From Teretinema zuelzerae (GTDB taxonomy: Bacteria > Spirochaetota > Spirochaetia > Treponematales > Treponemataceae), in contig NZ_JAINWA010000003.1 in the NCBI RefSeq assembly GCF_021021555.1, forward strand, positions 124,001-188,000: DNA of 64,000 bases, read 5' to 3'. The position numbers and the translations under genes are program-made. The notes beneath the pieces were generated by a model, which was not told the DNA's origin, did no database searches, and saw only the letters and a list, made by a program, of their open reading frames with translations. Positions within the stretch are counted from its first letter, which is position 1. Every line of letters begins with the position of its first letter. Shown here piece after piece: positions 24,425 to 34,092 of the stretch.

Positions 24425-25602
24425 CCATTCTGGGTTTATTCCTGAATAAAGAGATCAGAACCGGGGCAAACAGGCGGTATCTGGAATTGATGGAAGGCCT
24501 CGCCGAAAAAGGAAACAACGTCATTGTCGTGATGAATTCCCTGTTGCATTACGATGCCGCGTCATTTACGAAGATTTCTATTCCTGTGTCTTATATCAGA
24601 AAAGGCTTCCCCCCTGCTTCTTTTCTTTTCAAGCTAAAAGCTAATAACATTTCGCTTTTAGTGAAGGAAGCCATACGAAATAAGTCCGGACAACGCATTG
24701 ACTGGATCCTGATTCACGGCGACATGCATTTGAATCTTGCGGTCAAATTGAAAGATTTGCTTCATTCGCAGTTGTTTTTTGCATATCGCTGCAACGACAT
24801 ACTCCGATCGAAGTATTTACGGGAAAGCGGATGTCTGAATCCTGTTGAATACTCAAAAGCCCTCTTTTTTGAAACAATATATAAAGCGCGGGAAAAGAAA
24901 GTTGCGTTATACGCCGATATGGTGACGTTTCAAAGTACTTCCGACGAGCAAGACTGGATTTCCAGAAATAAAGAAACGACTACTAAAAGAATCGTCATTC
25001 CCGGTAATATCGGGTTGCCCCGCTGTTCTGAAGAATGGAAAAACGTTAATAAAAGCGAAACTTGCAAAGACCTTTTATATGTCGGCGTATTGAGCCTAAG
25101 CAAAGGTCTTTTCCAGGTATTCTCAATATTGAAAATGCTCAAGGAAAGAGGCCTGCACGACATTAAACTGACAGTGTTGGGAAAAAACGACTCTATCGAA
25201 TCCATTATCGCCATGATAAGAAAAATGGAAATAGAGAATAGTATTCATTTTGCAGGATATACCCTCCCTTTTCCATATTTAGCCGAATCATCTATCCTGG
25301 TTTTTCCGTCATATTACGATGCTTTTCCGGATACAGTTCTGGAAGCCTTGCATGCGGGTTGTCCTGTTATTGCGTCTAACCGGGGAGGGATTCCCGATAT
25401 ACTTAAAAATCCGGAACTAATGTTTCATCCGGAAGATGTGAGAGGCATGGCCGACTTGCTGGAGCGGTGCATCAGAAGCAAGGATGAATACCACAGAATC
25501 AGGGAAATTTGTTCGAACAGAGCTGATTATTTCCGGTTCGACTGGTGCGATCGTTGGAACTCGGCAATGATGGACAATCTACAGAGAAAGGAACCGCGAT
25601 GA
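24421..25602 (+). CDS. Glycosyltransferase family 4
   Basis: 393 residues, GT-B fold. The N-domain begins MTILGLFLNKEIRTGANRRY, an acceptor loop with the Arg-Tyr often seen after a Gly-rich stretch. The donor domain contains LLYVGVLSLSKGLFQVFSIL, HFAGYTLPFPYLAESSILVFPS, and the E-x7-E-like FPDTVLEALHAGCPVIASNRGG. Cytoplasmic face of the inner membrane. Joined by 4-base overlaps to both neighbours, so it belongs to the same transcriptional unit. Donor unknown. Confidence 0.87.
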   Translation: MTILGLFLNKEIRTGANRRYLELMEGLAEKGNNVIVVMNSLLHYDAASFTKISIPVSYIRKGFPPASFLFKLKANNISLLVKEAIRNKSGQRIDWILIHGDMHLNLAVKLKDLLHSQLFFAYRCNDILRSKYLRESGCLNPVEYSKALFFETIYKAREKKVALYADMVTFQSTSDEQDWISRNKETTTKRIVIPGNIGLPRCSEEWKNVNKSETCKDLLYVGVLSLSKGLFQVFSILKMLKERGLHDIKLTVLGKNDSIESIIAMIRKMEIENSIHFAGYTLPFPYLAESSILVFPSYYDAFPDTVLEALHAGCPVIASNRGGIPDILKNPELMFHPEDVRGMADLLERCIRSKDEYHRIREICSNRADYFRFDWCDRWNSAMMDNLQRKEPR

Positions 25603-26825
25603 AACTTAAAAAAACAGCTCAATTTTTCATCGTTCGGATTATTCGCATCGCAGACGCCTTGAGAATTTTCGCAATCAAGACTTTTGTTACATTGGGAGTA
25701 AAGCGCAAATTCCGCATTCTTTTTCTTGTAAACGACAACACAAAATGGAACGCTCAATCGGTTTTCGAGGTTTTCCGTAAGGACCCCAGATTCGACGCGC
25801 GAATATTTGTCTGTCGTCAGGAGCAAAGCGAATCCGAAAAAAAAACCAGAAATGGTTATGCCGAGGATTGCGCTTTTTTCAGGAAACGGAACATTCCTTT
25901 CATTCCTGGCTATGATGAGTCGATCAAAAAAGATATACCTGTATCATCATACTCGCCCGATCTTGTGTTTTATATCCAGCCGTGGGGTTGGACTAGAAAA
26001 TTATACGATTTAACAACTATCAGGAAAAAATCGCTCACTGCGTACATCCCCTACTCGCTGCCCATTTGCAACGATCCTAACGACAATCAATTAACGTTTC
26101 ATCAACTTATAACCTTTTTTTATGTACCGTCAGCCATATCATTGAAACTCAATCAAAAGGAGATGTTGAATAAAGGTAAAAACTGCGTCGTGAGCGGTTA
26201 TCCGAAACTGGACGATTATGCAAAGCCTGTGCAGAAAACAAAGAATCAACCGAAAATTTTATACGCTCCTCACCACAGCTTTTCAGGACGGCTTCGCTTC
26301 GCTACTTTCCGATGGAACGGAAGAGAAATGCTCGAGTATGCGCGTCGACATTCCGAAATATCATGGGTCTTCAAGCCACATCCGCGCTTAAAATACGAAT
26401 TGGTTGAGCAGAAGATCATGACTCTTGAAGAAGCGAACGATTACTATGATTCATGGGCATCGATGGACAACTCGGAGTTCTATAATTCGGGAGACTACAT
26501 AAGGCTTTTCCAGGAATCTGATTTATTGATTACCGATTGCATTTCGTTTCTCGGAGAATACCTGCCCTCGGGAAATCCCGTTATTTTGCTGGAAAATACC
26601 GAATCGGCAGGATACAACGAATTGGGAAAAGAAATCATTTCAAGTTATTATTCCTGTAAAGCATGGAACGAGGTAGAAATGGCTATCGAAAGAATCGTTA
26701 TAAAAAAACAAGACCCATTAAATGAAATTCGGAACAACACATTAGACCGTGTTTATCTTAAAAAATCATCTTCAAAAATGATATATGAACATATCGTTAA
26801 TACATTTTTTAACAGGATAGGTTAA
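25599..26825 (+). CDS. CDP-glycerol glycerophosphotransferase family protein (TagB/TagF-like)
   Basis: 408 residues. Family enzymes transfer glycerol phosphate or ribitol phosphate from a CDP-alcohol to a lipid-linked glycan. Motifs: KILYAPHHSF (normally YAPT[WH]R), WVFKPHPRLK with the His-Pro-His core, and DLLITDCISFLGEYL, where family members usually have TDYSS. The N-terminal amphipathic helix (FFIVRIIRIADALRIFAIK) fits membrane association. The start ATG overlaps the previous stop. No CDP-glycerol synthase was seen nearby, so the transferred group may be another phospho-alcohol, perhaps the product of the gene at 27,704. Confidence 0.75.
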   Translation: MKLKKTAQFFIVRIIRIADALRIFAIKTFVTLGVKRKFRILFLVNDNTKWNAQSVFEVFRKDPRFDARIFVCRQEQSESEKKTRNGYAEDCAFFRKRNIPFIPGYDESIKKDIPVSSYSPDLVFYIQPWGWTRKLYDLTTIRKKSLTAYIPYSLPICNDPNDNQLTFHQLITFFYVPSAISLKLNQKEMLNKGKNCVVSGYPKLDDYAKPVQKTKNQPKILYAPHHSFSGRLRFATFRWNGREMLEYARRHSEISWVFKPHPRLKYELVEQKIMTLEEANDYYDSWASMDNSEFYNSGDYIRLFQESDLLITDCISFLGEYLPSGNPVILLENTESAGYNELGKEIISSYYSCKAWNEVEMAIERIVIKKQDPLNEIRNNTLDRVYLKKSSSKMIYEHIVNTFFNRIG

Positions 26826-26827
26826 TA

Positions 26828-27679
26828 ATGAGATTTAGAACTTCAAATTTTCACGATTGTCGTGAATTGCATCAACAAATTAGAGGAAATCCTGTGTGGA
26901 TTGTGGGGTCCGATCCATCCCTTTCCAATTATCCGGATTCATTTTTAGATGACAAAATTGCGATAACGCTTCATCTTTCCCACATAAAATTTCCGAACGC
27001 AACATATCGGTACTCGAGCGAACCGGATAGGTCTAAATACTTACTTGATAAGACAACAGATTACAAAGAAAAACCTCTTTTGGCGGCATACCCATTATAC
27101 GGAGCGACAAAATCCGAGACAAAAAAGATATTATCTACATGCAAAGATGTATACTTTCATAGAATGGTATCTTACCCGCCCCACGGATTACGTGGCGATA
27201 TCAGTGAAAGTTTTACTAATTATAAAATACAACAGACAGTACGTAACAAAGCAAGATTCTGGGGTGGGCATGGCTCTTGCTTGCATACATGCATCTACAT
27301 GGCATTATTAATGGGTGCTTCGGAGATTCATCTTATTGGTTGCGGTCATAATTTATACGACGGCGGAGGCAAGGAGCATTTCTCGCAAGTGGAAAGCGAT
27401 CATCATTCAATGCGTCCGGGATACAGGTCTTTCAGCGATCCCGTGGAAAATGCTCCATTAATCGAACAAACGAGGCTATTTAAAAAATTATGCGAACAAT
27501 CGGGAATTCCTTTTATATGGCATCGATGCTACACTCCTGAAATGAATGAATTGATCGAGGTTACAGACGAATGGATGGCTATGCAGAAAGAAGCAGCCAT
27601 GAGAAAATTTCCTCTGATCAAAGTTTTTTACCGAAAAATCCTTAAGGGACCGATACATTCAATTATTTCGCGTTTTTAA
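26828..27679 (+). CDS. DUF115/MAF-like or sialyltransferase-like Rossmann protein
   Basis: 283 residues. NPVWIVGSDPSLSNYP resembles the nucleotide-binding start (VGNGPSL) of DUF115/motility-accessory-factor proteins and GT42 sialyltransferases. GGHGSCLHTCIYMALLMGAS followed by EIHLIGCGHNLYD matches the second conserved block, usually G-S-V-x6-A-x2-M-G. No signal peptide. In flagellar systems such proteins attach nonulosonic acids; here the context is a surface glycan. No nonulosonate synthesis genes are in the window, so the donor is unknown. AT-rich compared with the gene after it. Confidence 0.55.
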   Translation: MRFRTSNFHDCRELHQQIRGNPVWIVGSDPSLSNYPDSFLDDKIAITLHLSHIKFPNATYRYSSEPDRSKYLLDKTTDYKEKPLLAAYPLYGATKSETKKILSTCKDVYFHRMVSYPPHGLRGDISESFTNYKIQQTVRNKARFWGGHGSCLHTCIYMALLMGASEIHLIGCGHNLYDGGGKEHFSQVESDHHSMRPGYRSFSDPVENAPLIEQTRLFKKLCEQSGIPFIWHRCYTPEMNELIEVTDEWMAMQKEAAMRKFPLIKVFYRKILKGPIHSIISRF

Positions 27680-27703: not shown

Positions 27704-29518
27704 ATGCAGGCTGTCATACTCGCTGCCGGAATGGGAAACAGGCTCGGCAAATATACGAAGAATAATACAAAGTGCATGCTGGAAATCAACGGTACAACCT
27801 TGATCGAGCGCGATCTCGACGCGCTCGCGGCGAACGGGATTCCTCGATGCGTCATAGTCGTGGGGTACCAGAAGCAGAATCTCATCGATTTTGTAGGAAC
27901 CAATTATAAAGGAATGGAAATCGTCTACGTTAGCAACGACGTCTACGATAAGACAAATAATATCTATTCCCTGTGGCTGGCGAAGGATTGGCTCTTAAAA
28001 GACGATACCATTCTGTTGGAAAGCGATTTAATATTCGAGAACCGCATTATCTCCGATCTTTTACATGATCCGGAACCGACGCTCGCCGTCGTCGATCTCT
28101 ATCAGTCATGGATGGACGGAACTGTGGTACAGGTGAACAATCAAAAGGTCATCACCAACTTCATTCCAAAAAAGTTTTTCGATTATCAGGAACGCCACAC
28201 CTACTATAAAACCGTCAATATATATAAATTTTCGCGCGAATTCCTTGTTGAGTCCTACGTCCCTTTTCTCGAAGCGTATTCGACGGCGATGGGAAAAAAC
28301 GAATACTACGAACAGGTATTGCGCGTCATTACTACTTTAGAAAAAAATGAACTAAAGGCGTTTTGCCTGTCCGGACAGAAATGGTATGAAATCGACGACG
28401 CTCAGGACCGGGATATCGCAGAAGTGATGTTTTGCGACGATTCCGATGAAAAGCTCTCGCGCATGTCGAAACGCTTCGGAGGTTATTGGCGATTCCCTGG
28501 AATGCTCGATTATTGTTATCTTGTGAATCCCTATTTCCCTACTCCGGTGATGCTCAATGAAATGAAATCCTCGTTTCACGACTTGATTTCCGAATACCCT
28601 TCAGGCCTCAATGTACAAAATCTTCTGGCCGGAAAAATGTTCTCTATAGATGAGGAGCAGATTCTTACCGGAAACGGAGCGGCAGAGCTGATACGCTCCC
28701 TCGACGCTTCGCTGAAAGGCTCGGTAGGAGTCGTCTATCCTTCATTCAACGAATACCCTGAAAGCCTTCCGTCGCATCAAATAGTTCCACTCTTTCCGGC
28801 CGACATGCAGTACGGCCTGTCCGAGCTGCTGAGATGGACTGAGCAATGCGACAACCTTTTATTGATCAATCCCGACAATCCTTCCGGCAATTTCATTCCA
28901 AAAAACGATGTAATTCGTCTGCTGGATAAAATGAAGGATACAGGCAAAACGCTCGTGCTCGACGAATCGTTTATTGACTTCTGTTCGCTGGGGGCTTCTG
29001 AAAGTCTCTTTTCTCAGGATGTAATTGATTCTTATCCGAATTTAGTTCTTATTAAAAGCATAAGCAAGAGCTATGGCGTTCCAGGGATCAGGCTCGGCGT
29101 TCTTGCCAGCTCGAATTCAACTCTTATTAAGAAGGCTCGCAAATCGCTCTCCATATGGAACATCAATTCCTTCGGAGAGTTCTTCCTCCAAATCATCGGA
29201 AAATATCGAAAGGATTATGCGCTGGCCTGTTCGCAGATCATTGGAGAGCGCGAGCGCTTTAAAATCCTGCTTGAGAAAACCGGATTATTTAAAGTATATC
29301 CCTCGCAGGCGAACTACTTCCTGTGTAAGTTGACCATGCCGATAACGGCCAGGGCTCTGGCTAAAACGCTTCTGGCGGATCACAATATCTTTATAAAAGA
29401 CTTGACCGGTAAAAAAGGAATCGATGGAACTTCATGGGTTCGCATAGCTGTGCGGAACGGAAGCGATAACGATCGATTCATTTCGACTATTAATACGATA
29501 AAAGGAACCATTGAATAA
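27704..29518 (+). CDS. Cytidylyltransferase-aminotransferase fusion (LicC-like + HisC/CobD-like)
   Basis: 604 residues in two enzymatic halves. Residues 1-235: LicC-like nucleotidyltransferase with LAAGMGNRLGKYTKNNTKCM, VVGYQKQN and the metal-site LLESDLIF. Residues 250-600: fold type I PLP enzyme with LTGNGAAELI, LLINPDNPSGNFIP, VLDESFIDF and the PLP lysine in IKSISKSYGVPGIRLG. The second half resembles histidinol-phosphate aminotransferase and CobD threonine-phosphate decarboxylase. One polypeptide could thus make an amino-alcohol phosphate and activate it with CTP (for example CDP-ethanolamine or a related CDP-amino-alcohol). That is inference; a phosphonate substrate is also possible, though no PEP mutase is in the window. 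GGAGG precedes the ATG. Confidence 0.75.
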   Translation: MQAVILAAGMGNRLGKYTKNNTKCMLEINGTTLIERDLDALAANGIPRCVIVVGYQKQNLIDFVGTNYKGMEIVYVSNDVYDKTNNIYSLWLAKDWLLKDDTILLESDLIFENRIISDLLHDPEPTLAVVDLYQSWMDGTVVQVNNQKVITNFIPKKFFDYQERHTYYKTVNIYKFSREFLVESYVPFLEAYSTAMGKNEYYEQVLRVITTLEKNELKAFCLSGQKWYEIDDAQDRDIAEVMFCDDSDEKLSRMSKRFGGYWRFPGMLDYCYLVNPYFPTPVMLNEMKSSFHDLISEYPSGLNVQNLLAGKMFSIDEEQILTGNGAAELIRSLDASLKGSVGVVYPSFNEYPESLPSHQIVPLFPADMQYGLSELLRWTEQCDNLLLINPDNPSGNFIPKNDVIRLLDKMKDTGKTLVLDESFIDFCSLGASESLFSQDVIDSYPNLVLIKSISKSYGVPGIRLGVLASSNSTLIKKARKSLSIWNINSFGEFFLQIIGKYRKDYALACSQIIGERERFKILLEKTGLFKVYPSQANYFLCKLTMPITARALAKTLLADHNIFIKDLTGKKGIDGTSWVRIAVRNGSDNDRFISTINTIKGTIE

Positions 29519-30742
29519 ATGCGAACTGCGATGATTGTCAATTCTTTTCCGGAAATATCGGAGAAATTCCTCCTTAACCAGGTTATATCATTGATCGACG
29601 CCGATGTTGATATTACAGTCGTCGCATCGCTCAAGCCTTCTTCAAGCATGCGCCACGATATCTTCGACAAGCATCATGTCGAAGACAAAGTTACTTATCT
29701 AAATATTCCGCGTTCGCTGAAGAAAAGAATACCCGGAACCATCTTTCGGTTTATAAAACTCTTGGTATCATCACCTGCAACGGCTTTTCGCTGCTTTGAT
29801 TCCAGTAAATACGGGACAGCTGCTAAAAACGGAAAACTGATCTGGTTTGCCGCTGATTTTCCGAAAAATACCTATGATATCGTGCATTGCCACTTCGGCC
29901 CGAACGGACTGATCGGGGCTTTCTTAAAAGATTCAGGATATGTTCGTTCTTTGATCGTTACCTTCCACGGTTCTGATATAAACAGCTATCCTGCCCGGTA
30001 TGGAGAAGGCGTCTATCGGTGGATGTACGAGAGAGCCGACATGATTACCGTGAACACAAGTTTCACAGGCGGAAAAGTGGCGGTAAACGGCTGCAGTCCG
30101 GATAAAATTCGGGTTCTTCCTGTAGGCCTTATAACGACCGAATACGATGGGATTCGCAAGAAAGACCCCGATGCCTTTGCACTGCTGACGGTCGGACGTT
30201 TGGTTGAAAAAAAAGGCCATGAATATATGCTGAAGGCGTTGCCAGCTATATGCAAACGTTTTCCTGATGTCCGCTGGTATGTCGCGGGGAGCGGCCATCT
30301 CGAAGGCGTGTTGATAAAGATGGCCGCCGAGCTCGGAGTAGCAGAGTCAGTCGTTTTTCTCGGCCAATGCGATAACGAGGCTGTGAAAGATTTGTATTCC
30401 CGAGCCGCAGTTTTTATTCTTCCCAGCGTTACTGCTCCGGACGGCGACATGGAGGGACAGGGGCTGGTTCTGCAGGAAGCGCAATACTGCGGAATACCTG
30501 TCGTCTCCACCCTTCACAACGGAATTCCGGACGGCGTGAAAGATGGAATAACAGGGTTTCTTGTGCCTGAAAAGGATTCAAGCGCCCTTGCGCAAGCGGT
30601 TTGCGATCTTCTCGAAAATCCTGAGAAAGCTCGGAATATGGGTGAAAAAGGAATAGCTTTCGTCGGTTCAGCATACGACACCCGGATTCTTGCCGCGACT
30701 TTGAAGAACTGGTATCATGAATTGGAAAGTATATCTAACTAA
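29519..30742 (+). CDS. Glycosyltransferase family 4 (WcaL-like)
   Basis: 407 residues, GT-B fold. NSFPEISEKFLLNQV at the N-terminus and HCHFGPNGLIGAFLK resemble WcaL of colanic acid synthesis. TFHGSDIN follows, and then the donor domain with LTVGRLVEKKGHEYM, VFLGQCDNEAVKDLY, and GQGLVLQEAQYCGIPVVST (E-x7-E-like). The start codon directly follows the stop of the fusion gene (TAAATG). It overlaps the gtrA-like gene by 26 bases. Confidence 0.88.
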   Translation: MRTAMIVNSFPEISEKFLLNQVISLIDADVDITVVASLKPSSSMRHDIFDKHHVEDKVTYLNIPRSLKKRIPGTIFRFIKLLVSSPATAFRCFDSSKYGTAAKNGKLIWFAADFPKNTYDIVHCHFGPNGLIGAFLKDSGYVRSLIVTFHGSDINSYPARYGEGVYRWMYERADMITVNTSFTGGKVAVNGCSPDKIRVLPVGLITTEYDGIRKKDPDAFALLTVGRLVEKKGHEYMLKALPAICKRFPDVRWYVAGSGHLEGVLIKMAAELGVAESVVFLGQCDNEAVKDLYSRAAVFILPSVTAPDGDMEGQGLVLQEAQYCGIPVVSTLHNGIPDGVKDGITGFLVPEKDSSALAQAVCDLLENPEKARNMGEKGIAFVGSAYDTRILAATLKNWYHELESISN

Positions 30743-32292: not shown

Positions 32293-33358
32293 TATAACCG
32301 TCCTGACGCTTGTGGATCGGGTTTCAACTTTCTATTCGCTTACTCCCTTTTTTACTTCAAAAAACAAGGCGGCGAATTTTACCTATACAACCGATTCCGA
32401 GTGGTGCCTTAATAAAGACAAGAACACAATTCTCATTTTAATGAGGCAATTCATCAAACCCGACAGAGTCGATCTTTCCCTTCTAGAGAAGCTTCGGAAC
32501 AAGTATCGACGCATCGCTTTTTTCCACGACGACGCGGGAGGAGGAATCCCTCGTCTGGAAGTCCTCCCTTTCGTGGATCTCTTTTATTCAAAAGCCCTCT
32601 TCAAAGATCGAACTCTATATGAACGGCCTCTTTATGGAAAAGAGCTGTATTCGGACTATTATCACACGGTCTACGGCGTAGTCGATCCCGACTACCGCGA
32701 ACGCCCCGCTGTCAAGGATGCGGCTCAGTTGGACAAGCTCCGCCTTTCCTGGAATATAGGCATCGGGGACTACCCTCGCCATCAATTGAGGCAACGCGCG
32801 GGGGTTGCCGCAGCAAGGGTTTTCGGCCCCGCTACGGCCCGTTTTTTCGCGCTCAGAAAAGAGTTAGACCCCGAGGCGGCTGTACGCGACAACAAGGGAC
32901 TGTGGCCTGTTCATGCGAGAATCGGCTTGATTTCGCGCCCGTCCATATCGTATCAGCGGAGCCTCATTCTTGATAAAATCTCCGGGAACCCTTTGTTTCT
33001 CACCGGCTACGCGTCTCAGTCGCAATTCAACAAAGAAACGGCGCATTCGAAAATAGTGCTGAGTCCCTTCGGTTGGGGAGAATTATGTCTGCGCGACTTC
33101 GAGACGGTGCGCAGCGGCGCCCTCCTCCTGAAACCGGATATGTCGCATCTGGAAACCTGGCCGAATGTGTTCATACCCGGAGAAACCTACGTGCCCTTCG
33201 ACTGGGATGCGAAGACCCTTGTAGAAACGGCTGAAACAATGCTTGAGGCCGATCAGGAGAGACAGCGCATCGTCAGGAACGCCGCCGCCGCGTATAAAGA
33301 AGCGCTCGACGCGATGCCTGAGCGCTTCGATTCAACAATAAAGGAAATAATTCAATGA
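32285..33358 (+). CDS. Glycosyltransferase-like protein (GT-B C-terminal domain)
   Basis: 357 residues. The last third, KIVLSPFGWGELCLRDFETV, RSGALLLKPDMSHLETWPN and YVPFDWD, resembles the C-terminal domain of CgeB/Glyco_trans_1_2 glycosyltransferases, where the E-x-V-x2-G segment binds donor. The first two thirds (IAFFHDDAGGGIP, ARIGLISRPSISYQRSLIL) match nothing recognised. No signal peptide. It starts a new forward run (32,285-38,882) and overlaps the CDP-alcohol transferase-like gene by 4 bases. Confidence 0.6.
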   Translation: MINITVLTLVDRVSTFYSLTPFFTSKNKAANFTYTTDSEWCLNKDKNTILILMRQFIKPDRVDLSLLEKLRNKYRRIAFFHDDAGGGIPRLEVLPFVDLFYSKALFKDRTLYERPLYGKELYSDYYHTVYGVVDPDYRERPAVKDAAQLDKLRLSWNIGIGDYPRHQLRQRAGVAAARVFGPATARFFALRKELDPEAAVRDNKGLWPVHARIGLISRPSISYQRSLILDKISGNPLFLTGYASQSQFNKETAHSKIVLSPFGWGELCLRDFETVRSGALLLKPDMSHLETWPNVFIPGETYVPFDWDAKTLVETAETMLEADQERQRIVRNAAAAYKEALDAMPERFDSTIKEIIQ

Positions 33359-34092
33359 AATACCCGATGAAATCTATTCTCGCCTCATTGCCTCCTGAAA
33401 AACGCAAATCCGACGGAACGATAACGACCTTCATTCTGAGGCCCTTATCGTGGCCGGCCTCATGGTTTTTTCTGGCACTCGGGTTCACGCCGAACATGGT
33501 AACCGCTCTCAGCGGCCTGTGTTGTTTGGTAGCCCTGTTTTTTTCCTTCACTCCTTACATGACGCTTCATATAGCTGCCGTTGTTTTGTTTTTTGTTTTC
33601 GGTATCTTGGACTGCACGGACGGCAATATGGCCCGCACCATCGGAAAGAAAAACATCTACGGAGGCTGGGTTGACGCAGCAGGGGGATATTTCGCCTATT
33701 TCGCGCTTATCGCTTCAATGGCGGCATCAACGAATCTGCCCGGACAGGGAAAACTCGTAGTACCCTTTTTGAATACAGACCTCGCGGCTATATCCAAGAT
33801 TCCTGGAATCTGGATATGGATCGCCTTTCTCGCCGTCTCCGCGAATCTGATGATGAGGCTTTACCACCAGGCATTTAAAAACGCGGAACTGGCCGCCGGA
33901 ATCCAGCAGACACCCGGCAAGGAAAAGCGATTCAGCGAAGAAATCGGCATAACCGGATATATGCCGGTATTATATGCCGCAGGACTTTTTTTTAAGCAGC
34001 TCCCCTGGGTATTAATCTTATACTTTGCGATTTACGGGTTAGGATTTATAGCGACGTTCTATAAGATTGCAAAGAAAATTGCGCGGCGATAA
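33355..34092 (+). CDS. CDP-alcohol phosphotransferase-like membrane protein lacking the last motif Asp
   Basis: 245 residues with about five to six membrane spans. The family moves a phospho-alcohol from a CDP-alcohol to an acceptor, using the motif D-x2-DG-x2-AR-x8-G-x3-D-x3-D. Here Asp86, Asp89, Gly90, Ala93, Arg94, Gly103 and Asp107 are in place, but position 111 is Gly instead of the final Asp, which is thought to act as base. The DNA there is unambiguous (GCA GCA GGG GGA). Either the chemistry is altered or the protein is inactive. It could use or receive the CDP product of the 27,704 fusion. Confidence 0.7.
   Translation: MKYPMKSILASLPPEKRKSDGTITTFILRPLSWPASWFFLALGFTPNMVTALSGLCCLVALFFSFTPYMTLHIAAVVLFFVFGILDCTDGNMARTIGKKNIYGGWVDAAGGYFAYFALIASMAASTNLPGQGKLVVPFLNTDLAAISKIPGIWIWIAFLAVSANLMMRLYHQAFKNAELAAGIQQTPGKEKRFSEEIGITGYMPVLYAAGLFFKQLPWVLILYFAIYGLGFIATFYKIAKKIARR

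Follow-up and report, generated by a model that had tools for sequence, protein, structure and literature searches.

A cytidylyltransferase-PLP enzyme fusion from Teretinema zuelzerae as a probable FrbH-like bifunctional enzyme for CDP-ethanolamine synthesis

Layout of the locus

The window, i.e. the whole stretch of 64,000 nucleotides of Teretinema zuelzerae DNA that was analyzed, encodes the fusion protein within a surface-glycan operon as one open reading frame with an ATG start and no internal stop (Table 1), in which Pfam recognizes NTP_transf_3 at residues 3-122 (E 1e-10) and Aminotran_1_2 at residues 305-594 (E 7.6e-25). An AF2 model built from a 29-sequence alignment is confident in both domains (mean pLDDT 90). 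When the whole chain was submitted to Foldseek, the top match was the PntC-AEPT protein of Treponema denticola, similar in layout at an rmsd of about 21 A and without rigid superposition; the C-terminal domain by itself matched 6OUX best (TM 0.78 by target, 29% identity). The catalytic residues of both domains are retained in 29/29 aligned fusion members and, because the identical full-length architecture recurs across related genomes and further loci, the fusion is neither a chance join nor an assembly artefact. The preliminary description of this DNA, which had proposed a cytidylyltransferase with LicC-type motifs fused to a fold-type-I PLP enzyme bearing a DESFIDF motif, is thereby confirmed by the reading frame, the Pfam matches, the recurrence in other genomes and the aligned motif residues of both halves.

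Table 1. Features of the fusion gene and its operon (positions in the window)
Feature	Position	Strand	Basis or remark
TagF/TarL-like CDP-alcohol phosphotransferase, probable consumer of the CDP product	25545..26825	+	PF04464 weak, 23.5 bits; TarL profile match
Conserved upstream neighbour, 283 aa, weak MptE-like similarity	26828..27679	+	PF01973 below cut-off
Fusion protein, predicted cytidylyltransferase + Ser-P-decarboxylase-type PLP enzyme, 604 aa	27704..29518	+	ORF, Pfam, PDB, alignment, tree
N-domain, residues 1-243 (about), LicC/PntC-type MobA-like NTP transferase, predicted CTP-using	27704..28432	+	PF12804; PDB 1jyk, 6pd1
LLESDLIF motif, residues 104-111	28013..28036	+	E106 = TdPntC E104; invariant in family
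YYE, residues 201-203	28304..28312	+	E203 at position of LicC D192; invariant in family
WYEIDD, residues 227-232	28382..28399	+	E229 = LicC metal ligand E216
PLP domain, residues 259-600 (about), fold type I, Ser-P decarboxylase branch	28478..29503	+	6OUX top match; tree 100/99
DESFIDF, residues 420-426, PLP-binding Asp420	28961..28981	+	alignment
SISKSYG, residues 452-458, PLP Schiff-base lysine K455	29057..29077	+	alignment
RIAVR, residues 580-584	29441..29455	+	R584: Arg/Lys in CobD and Ser-P decarboxylases, Gly in HisC
GT4 glycosyltransferase directly after fusion, same operon	29519..30742	+	syntenic in three sister genomes
CDP-alcohol phosphatidyltransferase-like, possible second user	33355..34092	+	PF01066 29.3 bits; homologue in one sister genome, 43%

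The N-terminal domain

The N-domain possesses the LicC/PntC signature loop and metal ligands, and its family profile matches LicC (1jyk, 1.3e-23) and TdPntC (6pd1, 6.7e-20) far better than any sugar nucleotidyltransferase (7e-12 at best), which speaks against a sugar-phosphate transferase; the phmmer match of the fusion to 6pd1 covers residues 2-213 only. In TdPntC, E104 contacts the primary amine of 2-aminoethylphosphonate, AEP (PMC6697681). At the two amine-contact positions TdPntC has Glu, as does the fusion, whereas the choline-selective LicC has Asp at both; E203 of the fusion shares an alignment column with LicC D192 and lies one column off TdPntC E196. Because Glu106 and Glu203 are PntC-like and invariant in the family, the putative substrate of this domain is a small phosphate ester that bears a primary amine, rather than choline.

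The PLP domain

A PDB search with the C-terminal half returned 6OUX first (3e-40), followed by 3ftb, 3fkd and the Salmonella CobD 1lc5. The 6OUX entry, titled 'SMUL_1544, a decarboxylase from Sulfurospirillum multivorans', is ~29% identical to the fusion, and we take this protein to be an L-serine-O-phosphate decarboxylase. Its sequence is present in Campylobacterales genomes with what appears by eye to be a cobyric-acid-synthase-like gene downstream, in agreement with the published arrangement of SMUL_1543-1546 in norcobamide biosynthesis.

In a maximum-likelihood tree, a branch with 100/99 support separates the CobDs and HisCs from a group made up of 27 fusions, SMUL_1544 with its Campylobacterales relative, and two unfused rhizobial proteins; a homologue from a DXR-linked cluster of Priestia also falls in the clade of fusions and SMUL_1544. 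The fusion thus shares with SMUL_1544-type enzymes both the position in the tree and the PLP catalytic residues. K455, D420, R463, N392, R580 and R584 are kept across the aligned columns (R584 being Lys in one row), and S300 is common to the fusions and SMUL_1544, Asp standing there in CobD and HisC. Most fusions have K565, at which CobD (Arg323) and SMUL_1544 have Arg, so that phosphate recognition may differ between the fusions and SMUL_1544; it is a matter of speculation that K565 marks a PLP domain whose substrate is a diester (CDP-serine), as has been reported for FrbH, the bifunctional enzyme of FR-900098 biosynthesis.

Two other identities can be set aside. HisC, the second NCBIfam match, is ruled out by its score (122.4 bits, cut-off 276.55) and by the split in the tree, the PLP domain not clustering with HisC as the preliminary description had considered it might. 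The top NCBIfam model, TIGR01140 CobD, might be read as favoring decarboxylation of phosphothreonine to give CDP-1-amino-2-propanol; however, this reading is distinctly improbable and a true CobD is ruled out, as the match reaches 160.3 bits against a cut-off of 290.55 and the cobalamin-linked CobDs split off at the 100/99 branch.

The superfamily of fold-I enzymes contains transaminases as well as decarboxylases. A PLP domain that transaminated DHAP would supply serinol phosphate and lead to CDP-serinol, and the former compound is indeed made by Cj1437 in a capsule cluster (PMC12409886). Two order-wide Campylobacterales searches yielded no identifiable Cj1437 but a SMUL_1544-like protein beside a short downstream ORF that looks HAD-phosphatase-like by eye (L184). 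We regard CDP-serinol as an unlikely product and favor decarboxylation of phosphoserine, because the nearest characterized relative of the PLP domain, SMUL_1544, is a decarboxylase that groups with it at 100/99; the FrbH precedent is likewise a decarboxylase, and the acidic amine pocket of the N-domain resembles that of PntC, whose substrate carries an unbranched aminoethyl group.

The operon and candidate consumers of the product

Three genomes of the same genus show synteny with the fusion operon, and the MptE-like gene lies directly upstream of the fusion in 4/4 same-genus genomes that carry it. Between this gene and the same glycosyltransferase there is a slot that holds a TagF/TarL-like gene in the window and in genome G001 and a LicD-family gene in genomes G005 and G002; the window's genome itself gave no LicD match. 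The TagF-like family profile has a sole match in the PDB, the ribitol-phosphate polymerase TarL (8va1, 4.8e-7). Both LicD and TagF/TarL are well-established families whose members draw phospho-alcohols from CDP donors and, because the two swap one-for-one beside the fusion, there is good evidence that the slot consumes its CDP product; we infer the consumer from this exchange. Users of a CDP product had been announced downstream of the fusion. Such a position holds for the CDP-alcohol-transferase-like gene, which is weakly supported as a consumer, and not for the CDP-glycerol-type gene, which lies upstream and is the one well supported by the LicD swap.

Distribution and neighbours in other phyla

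Full-length fusions occur in 13/59 related genomes, at 49-72% identity. A species-level genome collection yielded 254 stretches that code for a relative, of which the best 80 span the query at 50-65% identity and include termite-gut Treponema, other spirochaetes, Bacteroidales, Prevotella, Fibrobacter, Lachnospiraceae, Ruminococcus, Coriobacteria, Varibaculum and one member of the Campylobacterales. Plasmid records add homologues from Fusobacterium (44%) and, at 32-35%, from Gloeothece, Priestia, Pseudonocardia, Erwinia and Rahnella, together with unfused versions of both halves beside aepX in Rhizobium and Mesorhizobium. The fusion is hence a widespread and unnamed family with carriers in Bacteroidota, Bacillota, Spirochaetota, Fusobacteriota, Actinomycetota and others, and our literature search found no description of it. 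Divergent fusions (41% over the alignment) are encoded in two Campylobacterales loci (L121, L122), near an ORF that by eye is CysQ/inositol-monophosphatase-like. At another locus (L017; G020:C21:167148-167879 and its neighbour), a stand-alone N-domain homologue (39%) without a PLP domain adjoins a TagF-like protein related to that of the window.

In 63 loci the fusion is followed, on the same strand and within 150 bp, by another gene. This gene is of the octopine/opine-dehydrogenase type in 30/63 and of the ornithine-cyclodeaminase/SbnB type in 10/63, never both, so that an imine-reductase-type gene follows in 40/63 loci at a median gap of 5 bp. Among solved structures, these reductases come nearest to octopine dehydrogenase and to 4m54, a putative ornithine cyclodeaminase that is presumably the SbnB of S. 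aureus; SbnB is also among the NCBIfam matches. LicD is present in 40/70 larger fusion loci, and in two Campylobacterales loci the fusion has a methyltransferase-like gene beside it, accompanied in one of them (L035) by a CDP-alcohol transferase and LicD. Since two non-homologous families of amine/keto-acid reductases occupy the same place, these arrangements suggest that the product of the fusion carries a primary amine that is afterwards N-carboxyalkylated in such loci. The window's operon contains neither an opine-dehydrogenase- nor an SbnB-type gene, which makes plain CDP-ethanolamine the simplest product here; in the octopine-dehydrogenase search of the window's genome, no control genome gave a match.

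These neighbours also bear on the notion that the two domains are merely joined and act on unrelated substrates, e.g. histidinol phosphate and a sugar phosphate. The Pfam models are general and HisC does appear as the second NCBIfam match, but we consider this extremely improbable given the separate HisC-like gene in the window's genome, the 100/99 tree, the distance of the N-domain from sugar enzymes and the company of LicD, TagF and imine-reductase genes.

The phosphonate question

A PEP mutase search gave no match in the window's 97%-complete genome, 11/14 control genomes being positive. Among 40 fusion genomes PEP mutase was found in 7, and 5 of these 7 also encode a separate class-V AEPT having a PntC domain or gene. 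The fusion might nonetheless represent another kind of PntC-AEPT, with CMP-2-aminoethylphosphonate as its product, given the phosphonate genes that follow it in three spirochaete loci and the aepX genes beside the unfused homologues of Rhizobium and Mesorhizobium. PEP mutase and phosphonopyruvate decarboxylase lie directly after the fusion in L029 (3418-5890) and L030 (8344-10800), phosphonopyruvate decarboxylase in L034 (9870-10832), in a gene order that we take to resemble the phosphonate genes of T. denticola; the PEP mutase of L029 and L030 bears a CTP_transf_like domain, and no class-V enzyme was found in L030. Because PEP mutase is scarce and a separate class-V AEPT is present in 5/7 genomes, the fusion should not be regarded as just another PntC-AEPT, and we hold the production of CMP-2-aminoethylphosphonate to be very improbable. 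A phosphonate route is unlikely for the window's genome, which has no PEP mutase match, and is rejected as the general role of the family (7/40 genomes, most with their own class-V AEPT), whereas a phosphonate role is possible in a few lineages, e.g. that of L030. The phosphonate genes of L029, L030 and L034 are not explained by CDP-ethanolamine synthesis.

Two further clusters deserve mention in this regard. A termite-gut spirochaete (L134:6393-11368) has a complete PEP mutase - Ppd - class-V PntC-AEPT cluster in a genome that also encodes a CobD-type fusion. A plasmid of Rhizobium sp. 007 (L128:456-11812) combines in one cluster the aepX PEP mutase, unfused cytidylyltransferases, a Ser-P-decarboxylase-type PLP protein, a CDP-alcohol transferase, octopine dehydrogenase and a methyltransferase; it may make a tailored CMP-aminophosphonate without Ppd.

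Proposed reaction and its meaning

Taken together, the fusion is probably an FrbH-like bifunctional enzyme that converts phosphoserine and CTP into CDP-ethanolamine or a closely related compound; we infer the substrate, the product and the order of the steps from the computed domain families, residues and gene neighbourhoods. The N-domain would use CTP to attach CMP to an amino-alkyl phosphate, and the PLP domain would remove CO2 from an O-phospho-amino acid, the net reaction being L-phosphoserine + CTP -> CDP-ethanolamine + CO2 + PPi. Phosphoethanolamine might be formed first or, as in FrbH, CDP-serine. The TagF/TarL-like protein encoded two genes upstream would then pass phosphoethanolamine to the polysaccharide that the glycosyltransferases around it build. 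The one-protein route to a CDP-amino-alcohol put forward in the preliminary description is therefore upheld as the best in silico reading, by the tree and by the LicC/PntC matches.

If this holds, a function can be assigned to an unannotated, multi-phylum protein family, bacteria gain a kinase-independent path from a central metabolite to CDP-ethanolamine, FrbH-type antibiotic chemistry extends to ordinary cell-surface biology, and specific unusual glycan decorations are predicted. We advance more tentatively, as a single and wider reading, that this de novo route to CDP-ethanolamine is widespread and unrecognized in gut and host-associated bacteria, and that exchangeable neighbours tailor the amine before LicD/TagF-type transfer, either by reductive N-carboxyalkylation (opine-dehydrogenase- or SbnB-type enzymes) or by N-methylation, which would give glycan decorations resembling N-(carboxyalkyl)ethanolamine phosphate. 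Such a compound, N-carboxyethyl-ethanolamine phosphate, presumably occurs in Proteus O-antigens, although our literature search returned no confirmation of its occurrence in O-antigens. These exchangeable amine-tailoring neighbours are the fresher part of the finding, FrbH-type chemistry being already known.

Comparison with known systems

The direct precedent for a one-protein cytidylyltransferase-PLP decarboxylase, absent from the preliminary description, is FrbH of the FR-900098 pathway of Streptomyces rubellomurinus, in which an N-terminal cytidylyltransferase and a C-terminal PLP decarboxylase convert 2-amino-4-phosphonobutyrate to CMP-3-aminopropylphosphonate (PMC8976061, PMC8007912). 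Compared by described architecture, FrbH has the same two-domain order as the fusion and its product is a CMP-activated primary amine; it differs in its phosphonate substrate and its role in antibiotic synthesis, whereas the fusion lies in a surface-glycan operon of a genome with no PEP mutase match. Because 2-amino-4-phosphonobutyrate differs from phosphoserine only in having carbon in place of the ester oxygen, the proposed reaction would be the phosphate version of that of FrbH. On plasmid pBM700 of Priestia megaterium (L129:4954-10638), the fusion homologue has as neighbours DXR, an AAC(3)-type N-acetyltransferase and an N-monooxygenase-like protein of the Lys/Orn type, and the annotation of this stretch lists no PEP mutase; these neighbours recall FR-900098-type clusters and thereby support the link to FrbH, and the product of the cluster may be a fosfoxacin/fosfocytocin-like phosphate analogue of FR-900098 (for fosfoxacin, see PMC9782300).

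The PntC-AEPT of T. denticola (Tde1415; 6PD1/6PD2) has the same layout, a LicC-type N-domain and the Glu/Glu amine contacts, but its C-domain is a class-V aminotransferase for AEP whereas that of the fusion is an Aminotran_1_2 member of the Ser-P-decarboxylase branch, as had been surmised in part when the T. denticola transaminase was judged to be of a different class; both types coexist in one genome. SMUL_1544 of S. multivorans, the nearest solved relative of the PLP domain, belongs to the same clade and shares S300, yet it is a stand-alone enzyme of norcobamide synthesis with Arg at position 565, where the fusions mostly have Lys. LicC of S. pneumoniae (1JYK) is alike in fold and motifs to the N-domain, and related fusion loci have LicD partners, but LicC is choline-selective (Asp/Asp) and lacks a PLP domain. 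Finally, Cj1436 and Cj1437 of the C. jejuni capsule, compared by description, perform related chemistry (Ser-P to ethanolamine-P and DHAP to serinol-P, respectively); they are nevertheless separate proteins, and their products are used as phosphates for amidation, without CDP activation.
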